Shown piece by piece: positions 1,521 through 8,901 of a DNA stretch of 10,968 bases. The stretch's first letter is position 1, and the number at the start of each line of letters is the position of its first letter. The stretch is from Bacteroidota bacterium (GTDB lineage Bacteria; Bacteroidota; Bacteroidia; Chitinophagales; Chitinophagaceae). A program made the position numbers and the translations under genes. The notes beneath the pieces were generated by a model. That model made no database searches. It saw only the letters and a program-made list of their open reading frames with translations, and was not told the DNA's origin. Location: contig CANHIR010000051.1 of assembly GCA_947461015.1 (NCBI GenBank), positions 1 to 10,968 of the forward strand, read 5' to 3'.

Positions 1521-1555
1521 AAAAAATAAAACCCCGACAATCAATGCCGGGGTTT
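1521..1555 (-). terminator. trp attenuator terminator (3:4 hairpin)
   Basis: Read leftward, AAACCCCGGC (1555-1546) pairs with GTCGGGGTTT (1538-1529) in a 10-bp stem (one G-U pair) around a 7-base loop, followed by a T-rich tract (1528-1521). This is a good intrinsic terminator placed between a Trp-rich leader peptide and trpE. Its left arm is also the target of the antiterminator, so it is conditional rather than a plain end-of-operon terminator. Confidence 0.88.
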
Positions 1556-1608
1556 ATGTATATTTTGACAATAATAGTTATGTCACTACAATACCCCAAC
1601 GGAGTTTG
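1546..1608 (-). promoter_or_regulatory. trp attenuator: 1:2 hairpin and 2:3 antiterminator
   Basis: Segment 1 (1608-1601, CAAACTCC) can pair with segment 2 (1597-1589, GGGGTATTG) around a GTT loop with one bulged A. Segment 2 read as GTTGGGGT (1600-1593) can instead pair over 8 bp with ACCCCGGC (1553-1546), the left arm of the terminator, using two G-U pairs. A 5-bp hairpin TGACA/TGTCA (1585-1581 with 1570-1566) lies between and may bring segments 2 and 3 together. A ribosome stalled on the Trp codons (1621-1613) would cover segment 1 and favour 2:3, allowing read-through. A ribosome reaching the TAG at 1588-1586 would mask segment 2 and allow termination. Pairing was worked out by eye. Confidence 0.82.
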
Positions 1609-1642
1609 TATGCCACCACCACATATTGTTTAATTTAATCAT
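1586..1642 (-). CDS. trpL: trp operon leader peptide (TrpL)
   Basis: A short reading frame encodes MIKLNNMWWWHTNSVGVL (18 residues) and ends in TAG. Three consecutive TGG codons (1621-1613) in such a small peptide are highly unlikely by chance and mark a ribosome-stalling leader that senses charged tRNA-Trp. It starts about 20 bases after a Bacteroidota-type -7 element and is followed by a mutually exclusive antiterminator/terminator pair before trpE. The internal ATG at 1624-1622, directly before the Trp codons, is an alternative start that would give the same sensing codons. The peptide itself probably has no function beyond being translated. Confidence 0.88.
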   Translation of the reverse strand: MIKLNNMWWWHTNSVGVL

Positions 1643-2863: not shown

Positions 2864-3265
2864 TTAATGACTTTTGCTTTTTGCCGCTTTCACTTGCGCT
2901 AAAGACACTTTTCCCGCTTTATTACTCCAACTTCCTCTTATGTAAGTTAATACATTGGCAATATCTTCATCTGACAAATCGGGATTCGCTGTCATTGCAT
3001 TGCTATAATAAAAGCCATCTAACGCAACTTTTTCATTATATCCTTTTTTAATGATGCGCACCATTCTAGCAATATCTTTGCCTACCACATTACTTGCACC
3101 ATCTAAGGGAGCATTCATATTGGGCACTCCGCCACCGTCTGCCTGATGACAAACCAAACACCTGGTTTCATATATTTTTTTGCCTTTTAATAAATCCTGT
3201 GCAGATAGATTTGTTTTAATTCCTACTATTAAAAAAAAGACAGCCAAAAATTTAATATAATGCAT
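2864..3265 (-). CDS. Small exported class I cytochrome c
   Basis: A 133-residue monohaem electron carrier for the periplasm. Residues 1-22 are a Sec signal peptide (hydrophobic stretch ending LSA|QD). The haem-attachment motif CLVCH (36-40) follows, and the likely axial methionine is Met91 in SNAMT, followed by the usual C-terminal helix (LSDEDIANVLTYIR, 97-110). The C-terminal tail is lysine-rich. It starts 23 bases after the dehydrogenase gene with no promoter between, so it is probably the electron acceptor of that enzyme or a carrier to the respiratory chain (inference). It ends 34 bases before hisB, placing it inside the his transcription unit. Confidence 0.92.
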   Translation of the reverse strand: MHYIKFLAVFFLIVGIKTNLSAQDLLKGKKIYETRCLVCHQADGGGVPNMNAPLDGASNVVGKDIARMVRIIKKGYNEKVALDGFYYSNAMTANPDLSDEDIANVLTYIRGSWSNKAGKVSLAQVKAAKSKSH

Positions 3266-3288
3266 ACCTACTAGTTTTTAAACATCCT

Positions 3289-4545
3289 TTATTTTGAATA
3301 ACTAATTTTAAAGATTGACCCATTGCTGTCATCACTTACATACAATGAACCATCAGGGCCTTGCGCTAAACCACATGGTCTTGCTTTTGCCTTGCGTGGA
3401 TTGGTTACTTTATCCTCACCAGTTAAACCAGAAAACCCATTGGCAAAAATTTCCCAGGCACCACTTGGTTTGCCATTTTTAAAAGGTACAAAAGCAACAA
3501 AATATCCTTCCTGAGGAAGTGGTGCTCTATTCCATGAACCGTGAAAGGCAATAAATGCTCCGTTTTTATATTTCTCTGGGAATTGATTGCCCGTGTAAAA
3601 CAATAAAGCGTTGGGTGCCATGTGTGCAGGGAAAAACACTGTTGGATCTATTGCGTTTTCGCCACCTTCTTTTTTACCATCTCCACCATATTCTGGTGAC
3701 AATATTTTTTTCTTTTGATAAGGATCGTAATAAATATATGGCCATCCTGCATTGTCTCCCTCATGCATTTCATACATGGTTTCTGCTGGTAATTCTGCAT
3801 TTTGAGCGTCATTGTACAAAGTTGGATAGAAACTGTTTAATTGATCACGTCCATGTTGCATAACAAATAGTGAATTGGTTTGTTTATTCCAATCCAATCC
3901 AACCACATTACGAAGTCCTGTTGCGTATCTTTTTCCATCCCCATACACTTGATTTTCTTTTTGTCCATCAAATTTCCAAATACCCCCTGCCGAATCTAAA
4001 ATGGGGCAAGGCATCATTCCTTTTGATCCTGGCATTCTATCTTTTTCTTGACATGCATTTGAATAGGCGCCTATGTTCACATAAATATTTCCTTGGCCGT
4101 CTAAAGTTATTGATTTAGAAGCATGCTGATTTCTTGCAATCAAGCCTTTTACAATGGTTTTAGGACTTGCTGTATTTTCAACCTCATCCTTATCATTTAA
4201 TTGATACATAAAAACATCATTGTCCGAAGTGGCATATAAATTTTTACCCTTAATAAAAATTCCTGTGCCGCCATATTTACCCCAGCCAGAAACTTCATCG
4301 GCTATGCCATCATTGTTTTTATCTTCCATTCGAATAATGCTATTGCCCCCTTTGTTTGGGTACATTAATTTGGCAAATAAAACACCATTAGGTGTAATGG
4401 CAATATGCCTTGCGCTACCAATGCCATTTGCAAACAAAGTTGCTTTAAATCCATTGGGTAATTTTAAACCTGCGTTATCTTGCGCATTTACTGCAAATGA
4501 AACTGCGATAAAAGCAAATCCTAAAACGATTTTTAAGTTTTTCAT
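3289..4545 (-). CDS. Exported sorbosone/glucose dehydrogenase-family beta-propeller (PQQ type)
   Basis: A 418-residue secreted oxidoreductase of the glucose/sorbosone dehydrogenase superfamily, which uses PQQ to oxidise aldoses to lactones or aldehydes to acids. A Sec signal peptide covers residues 1-21 (VNA|QD). Family landmarks include NQHASKSITLD (139-149), whose His141 fits the catalytic base position of soluble glucose dehydrogenase. Others are TGLRNVVGLDW (209-219), HEGDNAGWPY (261-270), FHGSWNR (334-340) and ARPCGLAQGPDGSLYVSD (388-405). A DKNNDGIADE loop (75-84) looks like a calcium-binding loop. The true substrate and PQQ use cannot be read from sequence. A cytochrome c gene follows directly. 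The 45-base gap after hisC has no TAnnTTTG promoter, so expression probably comes from the his promoter. Confidence 0.88.
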   Translation of the reverse strand: MKNLKIVLGFAFIAVSFAVNAQDNAGLKLPNGFKATLFANGIGSARHIAITPNGVLFAKLMYPNKGGNSIIRMEDKNNDGIADEVSGWGKYGGTGIFIKGKNLYATSDNDVFMYQLNDKDEVENTASPKTIVKGLIARNQHASKSITLDGQGNIYVNIGAYSNACQEKDRMPGSKGMMPCPILDSAGGIWKFDGQKENQVYGDGKRYATGLRNVVGLDWNKQTNSLFVMQHGRDQLNSFYPTLYNDAQNAELPAETMYEMHEGDNAGWPYIYYDPYQKKKILSPEYGGDGKKEGGENAIDPTVFFPAHMAPNALLFYTGNQFPEKYKNGAFIAFHGSWNRAPLPQEGYFVAFVPFKNGKPSGAWEIFANGFSGLTGEDKVTNPRKAKARPCGLAQGPDGSLYVSDDSNGSIFKISYSK

Positions 4546-4590: not shown

Positions 4591-5652
4591 CTAAAATGTT
4601 TTTTCAATCCATGCAGCCATAGCGTCCACTAATTCTGTATTCTCTTTTTCATTGCCTACGGTTACTCTAACCGTGTCCTCACAATTTGGCAAACTTGATC
4701 TGTCCCTAACAATAATACCTTTTGTACATAAGAAACGATACATTTCCGATGCCCTTGGTATTTTAACCAACAAAAAGTTAGTATCCGACGGATACACTTT
4801 TTCAACATGTGGCATGGATGCTATGACTTCCGCTAATGCAATTCGCATTGCTACTAAATGCTGAATCATATCATTCACCTGTCCCACTTCCTCCAACGCT
4901 TTTAAAACCAATTCTTGTGCAACCAAGCTAATATTATAAGGCGCTTTTACTTTATTTAAATAACCCACTATTTCTTTACTAGCAAAACACATACCCACTC
5001 TCAAACCAGCTAATCCCCAAGCCTTACTCAAGGTTTGTAAAACCACTAGGTTAGGATAATCCTCCAAGGATTGAACAAAGGATTTTTGCTTTGAAAAATT
5101 AATATATGCCTCATCAACAACAACCAAACCATTAAAATGGTTTAATACGGTTTCAATGTCTATTCTATCTAATGAATTACCTGTTGGATTATTAGGAGAA
5201 CAAATCCAAATAATTTTGGTATTGTCATCCACCAACTGTTCAATATGTGCCAGATTCAACTGAAAATCCGGCAGTAAAGGAGCGGACTTAATCCCAATAT
5301 TATTAATGTTCGCATTTACCTCATACATGGGATAAGTGGGGGGACAAATAATAATGTTGTCCTTGCCTGGCTCACAAAATGCACGAAATAATAAATCAAT
5401 AATCTCGTCACTTCCGTTGCCTAAAAAAATTTGAGCAGCAGCCACTTTTTTAATAAAAGCAAGCTTCTCCTTTATTGCTTTTTGATAAGGATCGGGATAA
5501 CGATTGTACCATTTTGTTAACGGAGAGCCTAAACTATTCTCATTGGCATCTAGTAATATCCGCGCTTCGCCACTAAACTCATCCTTTGCTGATGAATAAG
5601 GTTTTAATTTTTCAATATTGGGTCTTACTACTTTCTTAATATCAAATTGCAT
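4591..5652 (-). CDS. hisC: Histidinol-phosphate aminotransferase (HisC)
   Basis: A PLP enzyme of fold type I that transaminates imidazole-acetol phosphate to histidinol phosphate, using glutamate. The 353 residues match the family. Visible landmarks are DANENS (35-40), LGNGSDE (77-83), SPNNPTG (152-158), DEAYINF (180-186), the Schiff-base lysine in TLSKAWGLAGLR (Lys210), substrate-contact Arg218 and Arg329 in VRVTVG. The ATG lies 3 bases after the hisD stop, indicating translational coupling. The next gene downstream is the dehydrogenase instead of the expected hisB. Confidence 0.96.
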   Translation of the reverse strand: MQFDIKKVVRPNIEKLKPYSSAKDEFSGEARILLDANENSLGSPLTKWYNRYPDPYQKAIKEKLAFIKKVAAAQIFLGNGSDEIIDLLFRAFCEPGKDNIIICPPTYPMYEVNANINNIGIKSAPLLPDFQLNLAHIEQLVDDNTKIIWICSPNNPTGNSLDRIDIETVLNHFNGLVVVDEAYINFSKQKSFVQSLEDYPNLVVLQTLSKAWGLAGLRVGMCFASKEIVGYLNKVKAPYNISLVAQELVLKALEEVGQVNDMIQHLVAMRIALAEVIASMPHVEKVYPSDTNFLLVKIPRASEMYRFLCTKGIIVRDRSSLPNCEDTVRVTVGNEKENTELVDAMAAWIEKTF

Positions 5653-5655
5653 ATA

Positions 5656-6954
5656 CTACATTTTTGATTCTATATCTTTTAATCTAATCTCAATTGCTTT
5701 AGCGTGCGCATCCAAATTTTCTGCGTTGGCCATTTCCATGACCGCTTTCCCAATATTAATTAATCCTCGCTCGGTTAAATGCTGAAAGGTGATTTTTTTT
5801 ACAAAACTATCCACACTTACGCCACTATAAGCACTTGCATATCCATTGGTGGGCAAAGTATGATTGGTACCACTTGCATAATCCCCTACCGATTCTGGGG
5901 AATAATTGCCTATAAAAACCGACCCAGCATTCATTACTTTTTCAGCAATTATTTCGGCATTTTCAATAGATAAAATTAAATGCTCGGGTGCATACTGATT
6001 AATCAAGTCCAATGCTTCCGTTGTATGTTCAATTATAATTGCTTTGGAATTTTTCAACGCATTAATAGCCAAATCTTTTCTAGATAAGGTGCCTAGCTGT
6101 TCATCCAAAGCGGCTTGCACATTGGCCACCACTGTTTCATTACTAGCTACAAGTAATACCTGACTATCAACGCCATGTTCCGCCTGTGACAATAAATCTG
6201 AAGCTACAAAAGAAGGAATCGCAGTATCGTCTGCCCAAACACAAACCTCACTGGGGCCTGCTGGCATATCAATGGCAACACCTCCTTGCTGCACCAATTG
6301 TTTGGCAGCAGTCACATATTGATTCCCTGGTCCAAATATTTTATTCACTTTTGGTATGGTTTCAGTGCCATATGCCATAGCAGCAATGGCTTGAACACCC
6401 CCAATGGTATAAATATGTGTTACGCCTACTAAAGCAGCTGCGTATATAATTGCAGGATGAATCTCGCCTTTATCATTTTTAGGAGGTGTACACAAAATGA
6501 TATTTTTACAACCCGCAATTTTTGCTGGAATTCCTAACATTAAAACAGTAGAAAATAACGGGGCAGTTCCTCCAGGAATATAAATACCCACATTTTCAAT
6601 ACCCACTGTCTTTCTCCAACACCAAACCCCTGGCATGGTTTCAATGCGATCCATTTTTTGCAATTGGGGAAGATGAAATTTTTCAATATTCCCTTTTGCA
6701 AGTTGAATAGCTGCTTTTAATGCATTGGATAACTCGGCTTCGGCACTAACTTTTATATTTTCGTTTAATGCAATACTTTGCAACTGAACATTGTCAAACT
6801 CATTTGTAAATTTCAATACCGCACTGTCCCCATTCAAACGAACATCATCCATAATGGATTGCACTTTAGGCAAAAGCGTATTTGCTTCAAAACTAGGTCT
6901 TGCTAGCAATGAATTCCATTCCGACCTCGCGGGATTGTTAAAAACTTGAATCAT
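5656..6954 (-). CDS. hisD: Histidinol dehydrogenase (HisD)
   Basis: Performs the last two oxidations of histidine synthesis, histidinol to histidinal to histidine, with NAD and a zinc ion. The 432-residue length is typical. The zinc ligands match the E. coli enzyme: Gln257 and His260 (SQAEHG), Asp358 (GDYASG) and His417 near the C terminus. The catalytic bases are in APEH (Glu324, His325). YIPGGTAPLFSTVLM (125-139), FGPGNQYV (207-214) and DMPAGPSE (229-236) are also conserved. Its ATG shares one base with the hisG stop (TAATG), so the two are translationally coupled. It would be controlled by the his attenuator upstream of hisG. Confidence 0.97.
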   Translation of the reverse strand: MIQVFNNPARSEWNSLLARPSFEANTLLPKVQSIMDDVRLNGDSAVLKFTNEFDNVQLQSIALNENIKVSAEAELSNALKAAIQLAKGNIEKFHLPQLQKMDRIETMPGVWCWRKTVGIENVGIYIPGGTAPLFSTVLMLGIPAKIAGCKNIILCTPPKNDKGEIHPAIIYAAALVGVTHIYTIGGVQAIAAMAYGTETIPKVNKIFGPGNQYVTAAKQLVQQGGVAIDMPAGPSEVCVWADDTAIPSFVASDLLSQAEHGVDSQVLLVASNETVVANVQAALDEQLGTLSRKDLAINALKNSKAIIIEHTTEALDLINQYAPEHLILSIENAEIIAEKVMNAGSVFIGNYSPESVGDYASGTNHTLPTNGYASAYSGVSVDSFVKKITFQHLTERGLINIGKAVMEMANAENLDAHAKAIEIRLKDIESKM

Positions 6955-7808
6955 TATAAAATCATTTTTTCAATTGGGATTACTAAAATTCCTTCTGCAC
7001 CTGCATTTTTTAATTGCTCAATTCTATCCCAAAAATCACTTTCTGCAATCACACTATGCACACTGCTCCAACCTGGAGAAGCCAATGGTAATACCGTAGG
7101 ACTTTTCATGCCGGGTAATAAAGAAATAATTTTTTCTAATTGATTATTAGGTGCATTCAATAAAACATATTTATTTTTCTTGGCTTTCTTTACCGATTCC
7201 ATACGGAAAAGTAAACGCTCCAAAATTTGTTGCTGTTCCGCTTTGAAATTTTTATGCTTAATTAAAACAGCTTGAGAGTTTAAAATGGTTTCCGCCTCTA
7301 CCAATCCATTCATAAATAAGGTAGAGCCACTACTCACTAAATCACAAACCACATCGGCTAGTCCAATACCTGGTGCAATTTCTACACTTCCACTAATTTC
7401 ATGAATCTCTGCAATAATGTTATGTTCCGTTAAATATTTTTGTACTAAGATTGGATAGCTAGTTGCAATTTTTTTACCCGCTAAAAATGCAGGGCCAGTA
7501 AATGACTCGTTTTTACGCACTGCAAAACTTAATCGACACTTGCCAAAACCCAAAGCATACCCAACTTCCACTTTTTTGGCTTTTTCATAAACTACATTTT
7601 CTCCTACAAAACCAATATCAGCAACCCCATCTTCTACATATTGAGGAATATCATCATCTCTTAAAAAGAAAAGCTCCAATGGAAAATTGGTAGCTTCTGC
7701 TTTTAATTTGTTTACCCCATTGCCAATATCTATACCACATTCCTTCAACAAGCGCATAGAATCCTCGTTTAATCGGCCTGATTTTTGAATGGCTAGTTTT
7801 AATTTCAT
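6954..7808 (-). CDS. hisG: ATP phosphoribosyltransferase, long form (HisG)
   Basis: Catalyses the first, committed step of histidine synthesis, joining ATP and PRPP. The 284-residue size indicates the long form, with a C-terminal ACT-like regulatory domain (about 205-284) that binds histidine for feedback inhibition, so no HisZ partner is needed. The N terminus (KLAIQKSGRL, 4-13) and the PRPP loop (GLADVVCDLVSSGSTL, 149-164) are clear. The C-terminal domain is recognisable from SPTVLPLA (236-243) and a closing IPIEKM. The ATG lies 21 bases after the his attenuator hairpin. It is the first structural gene of the his unit and overlaps hisD by one base. Confidence 0.97.
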   Translation of the reverse strand: MKLKLAIQKSGRLNEDSMRLLKECGIDIGNGVNKLKAEATNFPLELFFLRDDDIPQYVEDGVADIGFVGENVVYEKAKKVEVGYALGFGKCRLSFAVRKNESFTGPAFLAGKKIATSYPILVQKYLTEHNIIAEIHEISGSVEIAPGIGLADVVCDLVSSGSTLFMNGLVEAETILNSQAVLIKHKNFKAEQQQILERLLFRMESVKKAKKNKYVLLNAPNNQLEKIISLLPGMKSPTVLPLASPGWSSVHSVIAESDFWDRIEQLKNAGAEGILVIPIEKMIL

Positions 7809-7828: not shown

Positions 7829-7857
7829 AAAAGGGCTTACTGTTGAGTAAGCCCTTT
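7829..7857 (-). terminator. his attenuator terminator (3:4 hairpin)
   Basis: Read leftward, AAAGGGCTTACT (7857-7846) and AGTAAGCCCTTT (7841-7830) form a perfect 12-bp stem with a CAAC loop. A short, interrupted T-rich tract follows. It lies between the His-codon leader peptide and hisG, and its left arm is shared with the antiterminator. The T tract is weaker than in the trp leader. Confidence 0.87.
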
Positions 7858-7908
7858 GGTTTAATATAGTTATATACCTACACACCCATAGCTTACCCTT
7901 TGGATAGC
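7845..7908 (-). promoter_or_regulatory. his attenuator: 1:2 hairpin and 2:3 antiterminator
   Basis: Segment 1 GCTATCC (7908-7902) can pair with segment 2 GGGTAAGC (7898-7891) over 7 bp with an AAA loop and one bulged A. Segment 2 can instead pair over 8 bp (one G-U) with GCTTACTC (7852-7845), which is inside the left arm of the terminator. Segment 1 begins two bases after the last His codon, so a ribosome stalled there would cover it and free segment 2 to form the antiterminator. The hisL stop codon (7895-7893) lies inside segment 2, so a ribosome finishing the peptide would block 2:3 and allow termination. Pairing was worked out by eye. Confidence 0.82.
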
Positions 7909-7940
7909 AAATGATGATGTATGTGGTTGTTTAAATTCAT
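7893..7940 (-). CDS. hisL: his operon leader peptide (HisL)
   Basis: A short frame encodes MNLNNHIHHHLLSKG (15 residues) and ends in TAA. Four of five consecutive codons are His (CAC at 7925-7923, then CAT three times at 7919-7911), directly upstream of a switchable terminator and hisG. This fits a leader that senses charged tRNA-His. The start is followed by TTA AAC AA, the same octamer found in trpL. The only plausible promoter ends 4 bases before the ATG, so the mRNA may be nearly leaderless. Confidence 0.87.
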   Translation of the reverse strand: MNLNNHIHHHLLSKG

Positions 7941-7968
7941 TTTGCAAATTTACGTTGCTTTTGCAAAA
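7941..7968. promoter_or_regulatory. Pair of TTTGCAAA palindromes in the his promoter
   Basis: TTTTGCAAAA (7959-7968) and TTTGCAAA (7941-7948) are perfect palindromes sharing an 8-base core, with centres 19 bp apart, about two helical turns. One lies in the spacer between the promoter elements and the other overlaps the end of the -7 box. They could be an operator for a dimeric regulator acting on the his unit or on the divergent GH16 gene. AT-rich DNA makes such palindromes fairly common, so this is tentative. Confidence 0.3.
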
Positions 7969-7975
7969 TCCCCAA
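7945..7975 (-). promoter_or_regulatory. Candidate his promoter (TTG-N20-TAAATTTG)
   Basis: On the minus strand TAAATTTG (7952-7945) fits the TAnnTTTG -7 consensus. TTG at 7975-7973 is 20 bases upstream, and a full TTTG at 7979-7976 is 23 bases upstream. Transcription would begin at about 7941-7938, at or next to the hisL ATG (7940). No better -7 match was found between hisL and the GH16 start. Confidence 0.5.
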
Positions 7976-8043
7976 CAAAAAAGGAATAAATTGCCTAAAT
8001 TGCTACAATAAAGTTTCAATAATTCAACAAACAATTGTTTTTT

Positions 8044-8901
8044 ATGCGCTTGATTACCCTATCTGCTATATTATCTATTATGTCTTTGTCTTTTTGTTCA
8101 ACAAAAGAAGCTCCAAGTCCTGCACCTACTCCAACTAATCCAACTACACCCACAACGCCTACAACACCTCCTGTTACGGACACGGCAAAAAAATTAGTGT
8201 GGTCTGATGAATTTGATAAAGGTACAAGACCGGACACTACAAAATGGGCATATAATATAGGTACAGGTAGTAATGGATGGGGAAACAATGAAGCCCAATA
8301 TTACACATCTGATTCTACTAATGCCAGAATTGAAAATGGAAGTTTAATAATTGAAGCAAGAAAAGAAAGTAAAGGAGGGAAAAATTATACTTCTGCAAGA
8401 TTACTTACACAAGGAAAAGCCTCTTGGACTTACGGGAGAATTGAAGTGCGTGCAAAACTTCCAAAAGGAGTAGGAACTTGGCCAGCTATTTGGATGTTAG
8501 GTGATAATATTAATACTGTAAATTGGCCTGCATGTGGTGAAATAGATATCATGGAACATGTAGGAAAAGAACAGGATATGGTGCTTTGGTCTACACATTC
8601 AAAATTAAATAACTGGTCACTAGGAACACAAAAAACAAACAAGGCAACCATTGATGGAGTATCTACCGCCTTCCATGTTTATAAAATTGAATGGTCCAAG
8701 GATTACATACAATTCTTTGTAGATGACAAGTTATACTACACATCTCCGAATGAAGGAAAGGGAACTGATTACTATCCATTTAACGCACCTCAATTTTTAT
8801 TACTCAACTTAGCCATTGGTGGAAACCTGGGAGGCCCAACAATTAATGATGCTATTTTCCCTTGTAGAATGGAAGTGGATTATGTAAGAATTTATCAATA
8901 A
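8044..8901 (+). CDS. GH16 family beta-glucanase, lipoprotein
   Basis: A 285-residue glycoside hydrolase of family 16, most like laminarinases (endo-beta-1,3-glucanases). The signal peptide ends in a lipobox LSFC with the lipidated cysteine at residue 18. A Thr/Pro-rich flexible linker (about 24-43, repeating PTT) tethers the catalytic domain. The domain opens with LVWSDEF and carries the GH16 signature EIDIME (166-171): Glu166 nucleophile, Asp168 helper, Glu171 acid/base. It closes with the typical MEVDYVRIYQ. ATG at 8044 is preferred over the upstream TTG at 8035 because it gives a compact lipoprotein signal. No clear -7 box was found upstream. The lactonase gene follows after 37 bases. Exact substrate (laminarin, lichenan or other) cannot be told; it acts at the cell envelope or surface. 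Confidence 0.92.
   Translation: MRLITLSAILSIMSLSFCSTKEAPSPAPTPTNPTTPTTPTTPPVTDTAKKLVWSDEFDKGTRPDTTKWAYNIGTGSNGWGNNEAQYYTSDSTNARIENGSLIIEARKESKGGKNYTSARLLTQGKASWTYGRIEVRAKLPKGVGTWPAIWMLGDNINTVNWPACGEIDIMEHVGKEQDMVLWSTHSKLNNWSLGTQKTNKATIDGVSTAFHVYKIEWSKDYIQFFVDDKLYYTSPNEGKGTDYYPFNAPQFLLLNLAIGGNLGGPTINDAIFPCRMEVDYVRIYQ

Follow-up and report, generated by a model that had tools for sequence, protein, structure and literature searches.

A probable ribosome-mediated attenuator with a predicted leaderless leader peptide upstream of hisG in Chitinophagaceae

The DNA upstream of hisG in a 10,968-nucleotide stretch from a Bacteroidota bacterium (contig CANHIR010000051.1; the whole stretch is called the window below) raises the question of whether a short histidine-rich open reading frame (ORF) and the hairpins that follow it constitute a complete his attenuator, as had been proposed in a sequence-only reading. 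Ribosomes of this group have been reported to fail to recognise Shine-Dalgarno sequences (PMC9976891). The analysis described here indicates that the element very probably controls transcription of the his operon by ribosome-mediated attenuation, with an anatomy that departs from the earlier proposal in the weight given to the position of the stop codon and in the first hairpin.

The histidine leader and its setting

The window belongs to an assembly of 1.7 Mb that is 71% complete. As listed in Table 1, the leader precedes hisG, hisD and hisC, with a bifunctional hisB and then a TrpE-like anthranilate synthase gene farther downstream, the TrpE match reaching 411.6 bits, under the curated cut-off of 517.7. 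The closest entries in the named collection are metagenome-assembled genomes that bear the label Bacteroidetes bacterium or Chitinophagaceae, and the genus-level label Sediminibacterium recurs among named relatives, at 84-88% HisG identity. For the family set, 147 genomes were searched, 113 of which had a HisG match; 90 upstream regions were taken and one (L060) could not be mapped, leaving 89. The named set retains 65 of 68 loci, with L155, L157 and L158 lacking a hisG start, while L145, L146, L151 and L152 correspond to contigs that the family set already contains as L040, L055, L086 and L082. A search across the phylum covered 198 genomes, 171 with a match, from which 44 loci of other families were read, distant HisG forms (E of about 1e-39 or weaker) being left out.

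Table 1. Features of the window, with positions counted from its first letter
Feature	Position	Strand	Remarks
trp terminator	1529-1555	minus	
Trp leader	1586-1642	minus	MIKLNNMWWWHTNSVGVL, then stop; upstream of trpE-like gene
trp box	1662-1669	minus	TAATTTTG
Two genes between hisC and hisB	2864-4545	minus	sub-cut-off matches, heme-binding and cytochrome families
hisC	4591-5652	minus	NCBIfam TIGR01141 above cut-off
hisD	5656-6954	minus	NCBIfam TIGR00069 above cut-off
hisG, first controlled gene	6954-7808	minus	NCBIfam TIGR00070 above cut-off
Intrinsic-terminator-type hairpin 3:4	7830-7857	minus	12 bp, AAAGGGCUUACU/AGUAAGCCCUUU
Segment 3	7845-7853	minus	GGCUUACU = 7853-7846; 3' half of antiterminator and part of terminator 5' arm
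Inner antiterminator helix 2b:3b	7858-7886	minus	GGU:ACC and GUGUAG:CUAUAU; fold without arm 4, -20.8 kcal/mol
Long 1:2 hairpin	7876-7927	minus	5' arm in first His codons, 3' arm past stop; fold of 5' part, -15.6 kcal/mol
Segment 2	7890-7897	minus	GGUAAGCU; 5' half of antiterminator, 13 nt past last His codon
hisL leader ORF	7893-7940	minus	reads MNLNNHIHHHLLSKG, then stop; upstream of hisG
Segment 1 of the sequence-only reading	7902-7908	minus	GCUAUCC; starts two bases past last His codon
Predicted transcription start	7940	minus	A of leader ATG; from the 4-nt box-to-ATG gap
Predicted -7 box	7945-7952	minus	TAAATTTG; Bacteroidota sigmaA consensus TAnnTTTG
Predicted -33 element	7973-7975	minus	TTG, 20 nt upstream of -7 box
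Divergent gene upstream of leader	8035-8901		sub-cut-off matches to glycanases

The minus-strand leader ORF claimed earlier is present (7940-7893), with four His codons at 7925-7923 and 7919-7911, the last of them being 7913-7911, and a TAA stop (7895-7893) that lies within segment 2. With a rule demanding three or more His codons in a stretch of six, a start in frame and an ORF of at most 150 nt, a His leader was found in 86 of the 89 scanned Chitinophagaceae upstream regions, against a mean of 4.55 (maximum 8) in 20 rounds of dinucleotide shuffling and 1/89 on the reverse strand. All 65 named-collection loci carry one (shuffles 1.95, reverse strand 4), as do 35 of the 44 loci from other Bacteroidota families (shuffles 1.45, reverse strand 4). 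The same rule, a loose one, gave 11 matches when applied to a further 280 large ORFs from 400 kb of the relative G087, and one of these matches was the his leader of G087 itself. The pattern greatly exceeds chance expectation. By the His rule no leader was detected in L033, L037 (only 120 nt upstream DNA) and L058 of the family, nor in nine other-family loci.

The number of His codons per leader ranges from three to seven in the family and from three to five in the named set, with CAT (346) and CAC (68) both occurring across the family. Single His codons have been swapped in several close relatives, giving cores such as HIHHFH, HIHHLH and NPIHHH, which means that individual codons are not fixed while the cluster is kept. 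All 66 rows formed by the named set and the window retain at least three, so that the loss of His codons in close relatives, which would have spoken against the earlier proposal, was not encountered. A contig labelled Comamonas sp. (L108) was also found to encode a HisG 88% identical to that of the window, together with a similar leader, MLLNNHIHHLHLLSKG; it is probably mislabelled or part of a mixed bin.

Pairings between the leader and hisG

The 12-bp terminator was recovered as claimed (7857-7830), and this hairpin of the intrinsic-terminator type lies between the leader ORF and the first gene. Conservation was followed in an alignment of 77 of the 86 family leaders (A1), from which near-duplicates (L006, L043, L049), leaders misplaced by the last-His rule (L016, L034, L088) and an odd one (L080) were among those left out. 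In A1, 98% of 3:4 cells are paired and 66 are double-changed, values found in 0/500 shuffles, and changes on both sides occur in seven of the ten aligned pairs; RNAalifold on the same alignment gave the terminator alone. Over the 86 family leaders the terminator score has a median of 31.3, compared to 12.8 for shuffled sequences, with 81 scoring at least 25. As a point of caution, the longest U run at the end of the stem is four in the window, against at least six in 67 of the 86. In other families the terminators have a median score of 30.4 against 11.9 when shuffled, 20 of 35 scoring at least 25, and in 34 of these 35 leaders no GGTAAGC-type motif was found between -24 and +40 relative to the leader stop. 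A different shared his terminator, AACCCGTTTGAG...AACGGGTT or close variants of it, has been observed in L172, L175-L177, L180, L182-L184, L189 and L190, preceded by leaders such as MTFIQLHHHHHHICTQAN; these loci are perhaps a second sequence family of his attenuators.

The 8-bp antiterminator is likewise found where it had been placed (7897-7890 with 7853-7846), two of its pairs being G.U, and its formation and that of the terminator are mutually exclusive. With L070 and L077 left out of A1 as having no recognisable segment 2, omissions that both favour this pairing, it is held in 97.2% of A1 cells, and neither percentage nor score was matched in any of 500 shuffles. Double changes are few, amounting to three pairs, a count reached by 52/500 shuffles. 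A coordinated change has been detected in L031 and L038, where GGTGAGCC pairs with GGTTCGCC. Taken one locus at a time, the best 2:3 helix outperforms shuffled versions of itself (p 0.05) in 131 of 154 and fails to do so in the remaining 23; the four double contigs are among the 154, as are L159-L161, whose genomes already appear in the family set. The inner helix 2b:3b gave z 3.5 in a partner-swap test of the family (2/5000) and z 7.4 in a looser test of the named set. The covariance analysis that had been suggested for related hisG upstream regions was strong for 3:4 and, for 2:3, returned a pairing retained almost throughout with few double changes, and the antiterminator has not been lost in close relatives. 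The best 2:3 pairing begins 13-14 nt past the last His codon in 58/86 family leaders and 62/66 named-set rows, some of the outliers arising from the rule choosing a later His codon. The conserved element of the geometry is a distance of about 13 nt from the last His codon to segment 2.

The variation of segment 2 coincides with the stop codon forms TAA, TAG and TGA, and the overlap with the stop codon could by itself explain the A/G changes observed there. In 21 of the 86 family leaders, nonetheless, the stop is located outside segment 2, in six before it and in 15 beyond it, with the segment read through in another frame, and in 20 of these 21 a helix of 6 bp or longer still forms between segment 2 and the 5' arm of the terminator. 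This persistence answers the confounding by the stop codon. In L027, L034, L041-L043, L046 and L089 a GGTAAGC-type segment lies inside the coding sequence in a different frame, most of these leaders ending in DGIM before the stop; L074 has the motif and no pairing, the motif of L086 may be a chance match, and in L070, L077 and L088 no GGTAAGC-type motif was present in the stretch searched. The read-through leaders provide a natural experiment in which the constraint on the RNA is separated from that on the stop codon. Placing the stop inside segment 2, which the earlier reading took as part of the geometry, therefore holds for the window and is not conserved in the family, and the stop codon within segment 2 is dispensable.

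The first hairpin also differs from what had been described. A 7-bp 1:2 helix does exist in the window and starts two bases past the last His codon as stated, but it carries a one-base bulge, closes on a 3-nt loop and is weakly supported, with 77% of A1 cells paired; shuffles reach this percentage in 10/500 and the score in 14/500, and they reach its double changes in 366/500 and 115/500. For a longer 1:2 hairpin, the stretch around the first His codon was compared with a partner looked for 12-28 nt downstream of a GTAAGC-type motif, in 78 of the 86 family leaders (79 have the motif and one duplicate was removed). Swapping partners between genomes gave z 6.7 for these 78 sequences, the observed mean being reached in 0/5000 permutations, with arms as diverse in sequence as TTGCACATA:TATGTGCAA, CGTACATA:TATGTACG and CACATGTAC:GTACATGTG. 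A looser partner-swap test on 65 named sequences was negative (z -1.5), perhaps as a result of sequences that are too alike. From these comparisons the long hairpin appears better supported than the short helix. In the his leader of E. coli the pause hairpin takes in the His-codon region, an arrangement which the long 1:2 hairpin recalls.

Promoter-like boxes and the predicted leaderless start

The 5' limit of the interval marked out in the sequence-only reading (7975) coincides with the predicted -33 TTG. Perfect TAnnTTTG boxes have been detected upstream of 81/86 family leaders, compared to 2.8 in shuffles of the 45 upstream bases, and in 61 of the 66 rows of named set and window, the other five having a near match in the same place. 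The gap from box to ATG is exactly 4 nt in 57 of the 61 perfect-box rows, through 28 different 4-nt spacers, and a TTG stands 20 nt above the box in 55/61 perfect-box named-set rows, with a second TTG at 23 nt in 28. Across the family, TTG-to-box spacers of 18-20 dominate and the box-to-ATG gap ranges from 4 to 20 nt, with one at 27 and none below 4 in the 81 leaders. A scan for E. coli-type promoters was uninformative (42 found, 42.4 in shuffles). In Flavobacterium psychrophilum the TAnnTTTG box has been reported to occupy -12 to -5 (PMC9723704), which together with the 4-nt gap would place the start on the A of the ATG. The hisL peptide is accordingly predicted to be leaderless, with transcription starting on the AUG or no more than two bases from it, a prediction that leans on the promoter consensus of other Bacteroidota.

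Short gaps of this kind are not rare as such. Among 130 large ORFs of G087 with 100 nt of free upstream DNA, 35 have a perfect box within 112 nt, the gap being no more than 10 nt in seven of them and no more than 20 nt in 13. When the intergenic filter is lifted, a box occurs within 52 nt of 51/285 ORFs, at 10 nt or less in 15 of the 51, at exactly 4 nt in three and below 4 nt in four; the median gap is 18 for G087 ORFs versus 9 for his leaders (p 1.4e-5). A short box gap alone is unexceptional, and it is the constancy of the gap that is exceptional. In leaders of other families, perfect boxes were found in 18/35, at gaps of 7-48 nt, and an exactly leaderless start would for that reason be a feature of the lineage and not of the whole phylum.

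It is fairly unlikely, if worth keeping in view, that the attenuator is fed instead by a promoter farther upstream, giving the leader message an ordinary 5' untranslated region, and that the box near the ATG does not mark the start. The wide gaps of the other families are compatible with this, as is the rarity of leaderless messages in the phylum in which one is predicted here: they account for 5.5% of messages in F. psychrophilum (PMC9723704), 87% of Flavobacterium johnsoniae messages are described as having a 5' leader of more than 10 nt, and about 3.7% of Bacteroides thetaiotaomicron messages are given as under 10 nt. An unused box, however, would hardly keep its distance from the ATG, and from a TTG 20 nt above it, while the letters of the spacer are free to vary.

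A second attenuator, with a Trp leader, lies upstream of the trpE-like gene. Trp leaders occur in 29/30 family trpE loci, the window included, most of them reading WWWHTNS..., and the last Trp codon lies 15-16 nt from a GGGG segment in 24/29. Under a relaxed rule, a box stands 4-11 nt before the first in-frame start in 21/29 Trp leaders (shuffles 1.9, maximum 6); the gap between trp box and start in the window is 19 nt. A match to the Rfam model rnk_pseudo (1521-1623, minus strand) overlaps the trp leader and terminator, but at 36.2 bits it is below the gathering threshold of 55 and is likely a chance match. It is put forward tentatively, as a proposal somewhat short of an even chance, that amino acid attenuators in Chitinophagaceae, and perhaps in Bacteroidota more widely, systematically begin transcription on the leader AUG or a few bases away from it, his and trp sharing this design. 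If true, the first ribosome would load at the earliest moment, near enough to RNA polymerase for attenuation and without Shine-Dalgarno pairing.

Proposed mechanism and relation to known attenuators

From the ORF, the His codons, the promoter-like boxes, the alternative pairings and their conservation, which have been established from the sequence, a course of events may be inferred that involves the start site, translation, stalling and termination in vivo. The first ribosome would load on a leaderless message as its 5' end emerges. With ample charged tRNA-His it would reach the stop and cover segment 2, allowing 3:4 to pair and transcription to terminate before hisG. When His-tRNA is scarce the ribosome would stall at the His codons with its leading edge short of segment 2, disrupting the long 1:2 hairpin, so that segments 2 and 2b could pair with 3b and 3 and transcription would continue into hisG, hisD and hisC. 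On an untranslated leader, segment 2 would be held by the long 1:2 hairpin and termination would follow by default.

A ribosome with a codon in its A site covers roughly the next ten bases. One positioned at the last His codon would, on this footing, leave segment 2 free and occupy the 5' arm of the long hairpin. If the RNA is masked as far as 10 nt beyond the last (or first) His codon and arm 4 has yet to be made, the antiterminator folds at -20.8 kcal/mol, while a stop codon in the A site prevents it from forming and just a -3.5 kcal/mol structure is present before arm 4. Once arm 4 is included, the minimum-energy fold keeps the terminator in all three stalling cases, and the switch must therefore be kinetic, decided during RNA synthesis as in other attenuators. 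A ribosome-mediated his attenuator remains the best reading of the locus, given the conserved His cluster, the 2:3 pairing and the spacing; of the geometry said to fit stalling control, the stop position is not conserved and the short 1:2 helix has little support.

Control of hisG at the level of translation, by the hairpin or through a leader ORF that raises it by reinitiation, is highly improbable. Leader genes near structural genes have been proposed to aid reinitiation, with a peak at 11-14 bp in Bacteroidetes (PMC4833913), but the leader stop of the window is 84 nt from hisG, the hisG ATG lies 21 nt past the stem and outside the hairpins described, and the hairpin present is of the terminator type and covaries. 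That the His-rich peptide is itself functional, for instance in metal binding, with the hairpin merely terminating its small gene, has a precedent for a leader peptide acting in trans in peTrpL of Sinorhizobium meliloti (PMC7298713) and can nevertheless be set aside almost entirely, considering that by the rule applied to it the peptide varies from 9 to 35 aa and is variable outside the His core, that its frequent C-terminal LPxG is read off the RNA segments, and that the alternative antiterminator would be left without a role.

The attenuator has also been compared with database models. The Rfam His leader (RF00514) was not matched at E values up to 1, either in the window or in 16 related loci, and the T-box model gave nothing up to E = 1 in the window, where Rfam as a whole returned at most sub-threshold, implausible matches, the best being the rnk_pseudo hit mentioned above. 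Thr_leader matches in L164 and L024 were sub-threshold and have not been taken as membership. Considering that the window and the 16 related loci are without an Rfam match, the element could become an Rfam family.

The hisL system of E. coli and Salmonella, as described in PMC3896937, shares with it a short ORF, rich in clustered His codons and placed ahead of the first his gene, an intrinsic terminator and an alternative antiterminator; seven consecutive His codons are present there, compared to three to seven here, and the element described here is from another phylum, with other sequences and a predicted leaderless start. The his attenuators reported from some Firmicutes (PMC9413887) have three to five His codons in a row and a terminator and antiterminator upstream of his operons; they belong to a different phylum, and the word "Bacteroidetes" is absent from the main text of that study. 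Closest in lineage is a 5' element of hisG in Flavobacteriaceae (PMC9723704), which is structured, conserved and from the same phylum; that study reports conserved hisG and pheA 5' elements without Rfam hits and strong indications that operons for amino acid biosynthesis are preceded by leader-peptide attenuators, while in the portions of it available here a leader peptide, pairing scheme and start geometry are not given for hisG. Leaderless leader peptides have been described in Streptomyces lividans, with the AUG at the 5' end of the message and hairpins downstream (PMC8079986), and in trpL of S. meliloti, where attenuator hairpins follow in the same way (PMC10117765); these come from other phyla and, in the accounts drawn on, concern Leu, Trp, Ilv, Thr and others, not His. 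In the literature searched on attenuation and leader peptides in Bacteroidota and Chitinophaga, as far as its texts were available, no Bacteroidota his leader peptide or pairing scheme was found, and the 2010 comparative study of Lopatovskaya may cover the phylum. As the Flavobacteriaceae element and leaderless leader peptides are already known, the claim to novelty is modest: the mechanism is ordinary and well supported, with two corrections of anatomy and, as the one new prediction, a leaderless start.

His attenuation is nearly constant in one Bacteroidota family and frequent in the others sampled. Since attenuation needs the first ribosome to be close behind RNA polymerase, these leaders offer a natural test of transcription-translation coupling in Bacteroidota, for which the predicted leaderless start provides a concrete hypothesis of how such coupling may arise.
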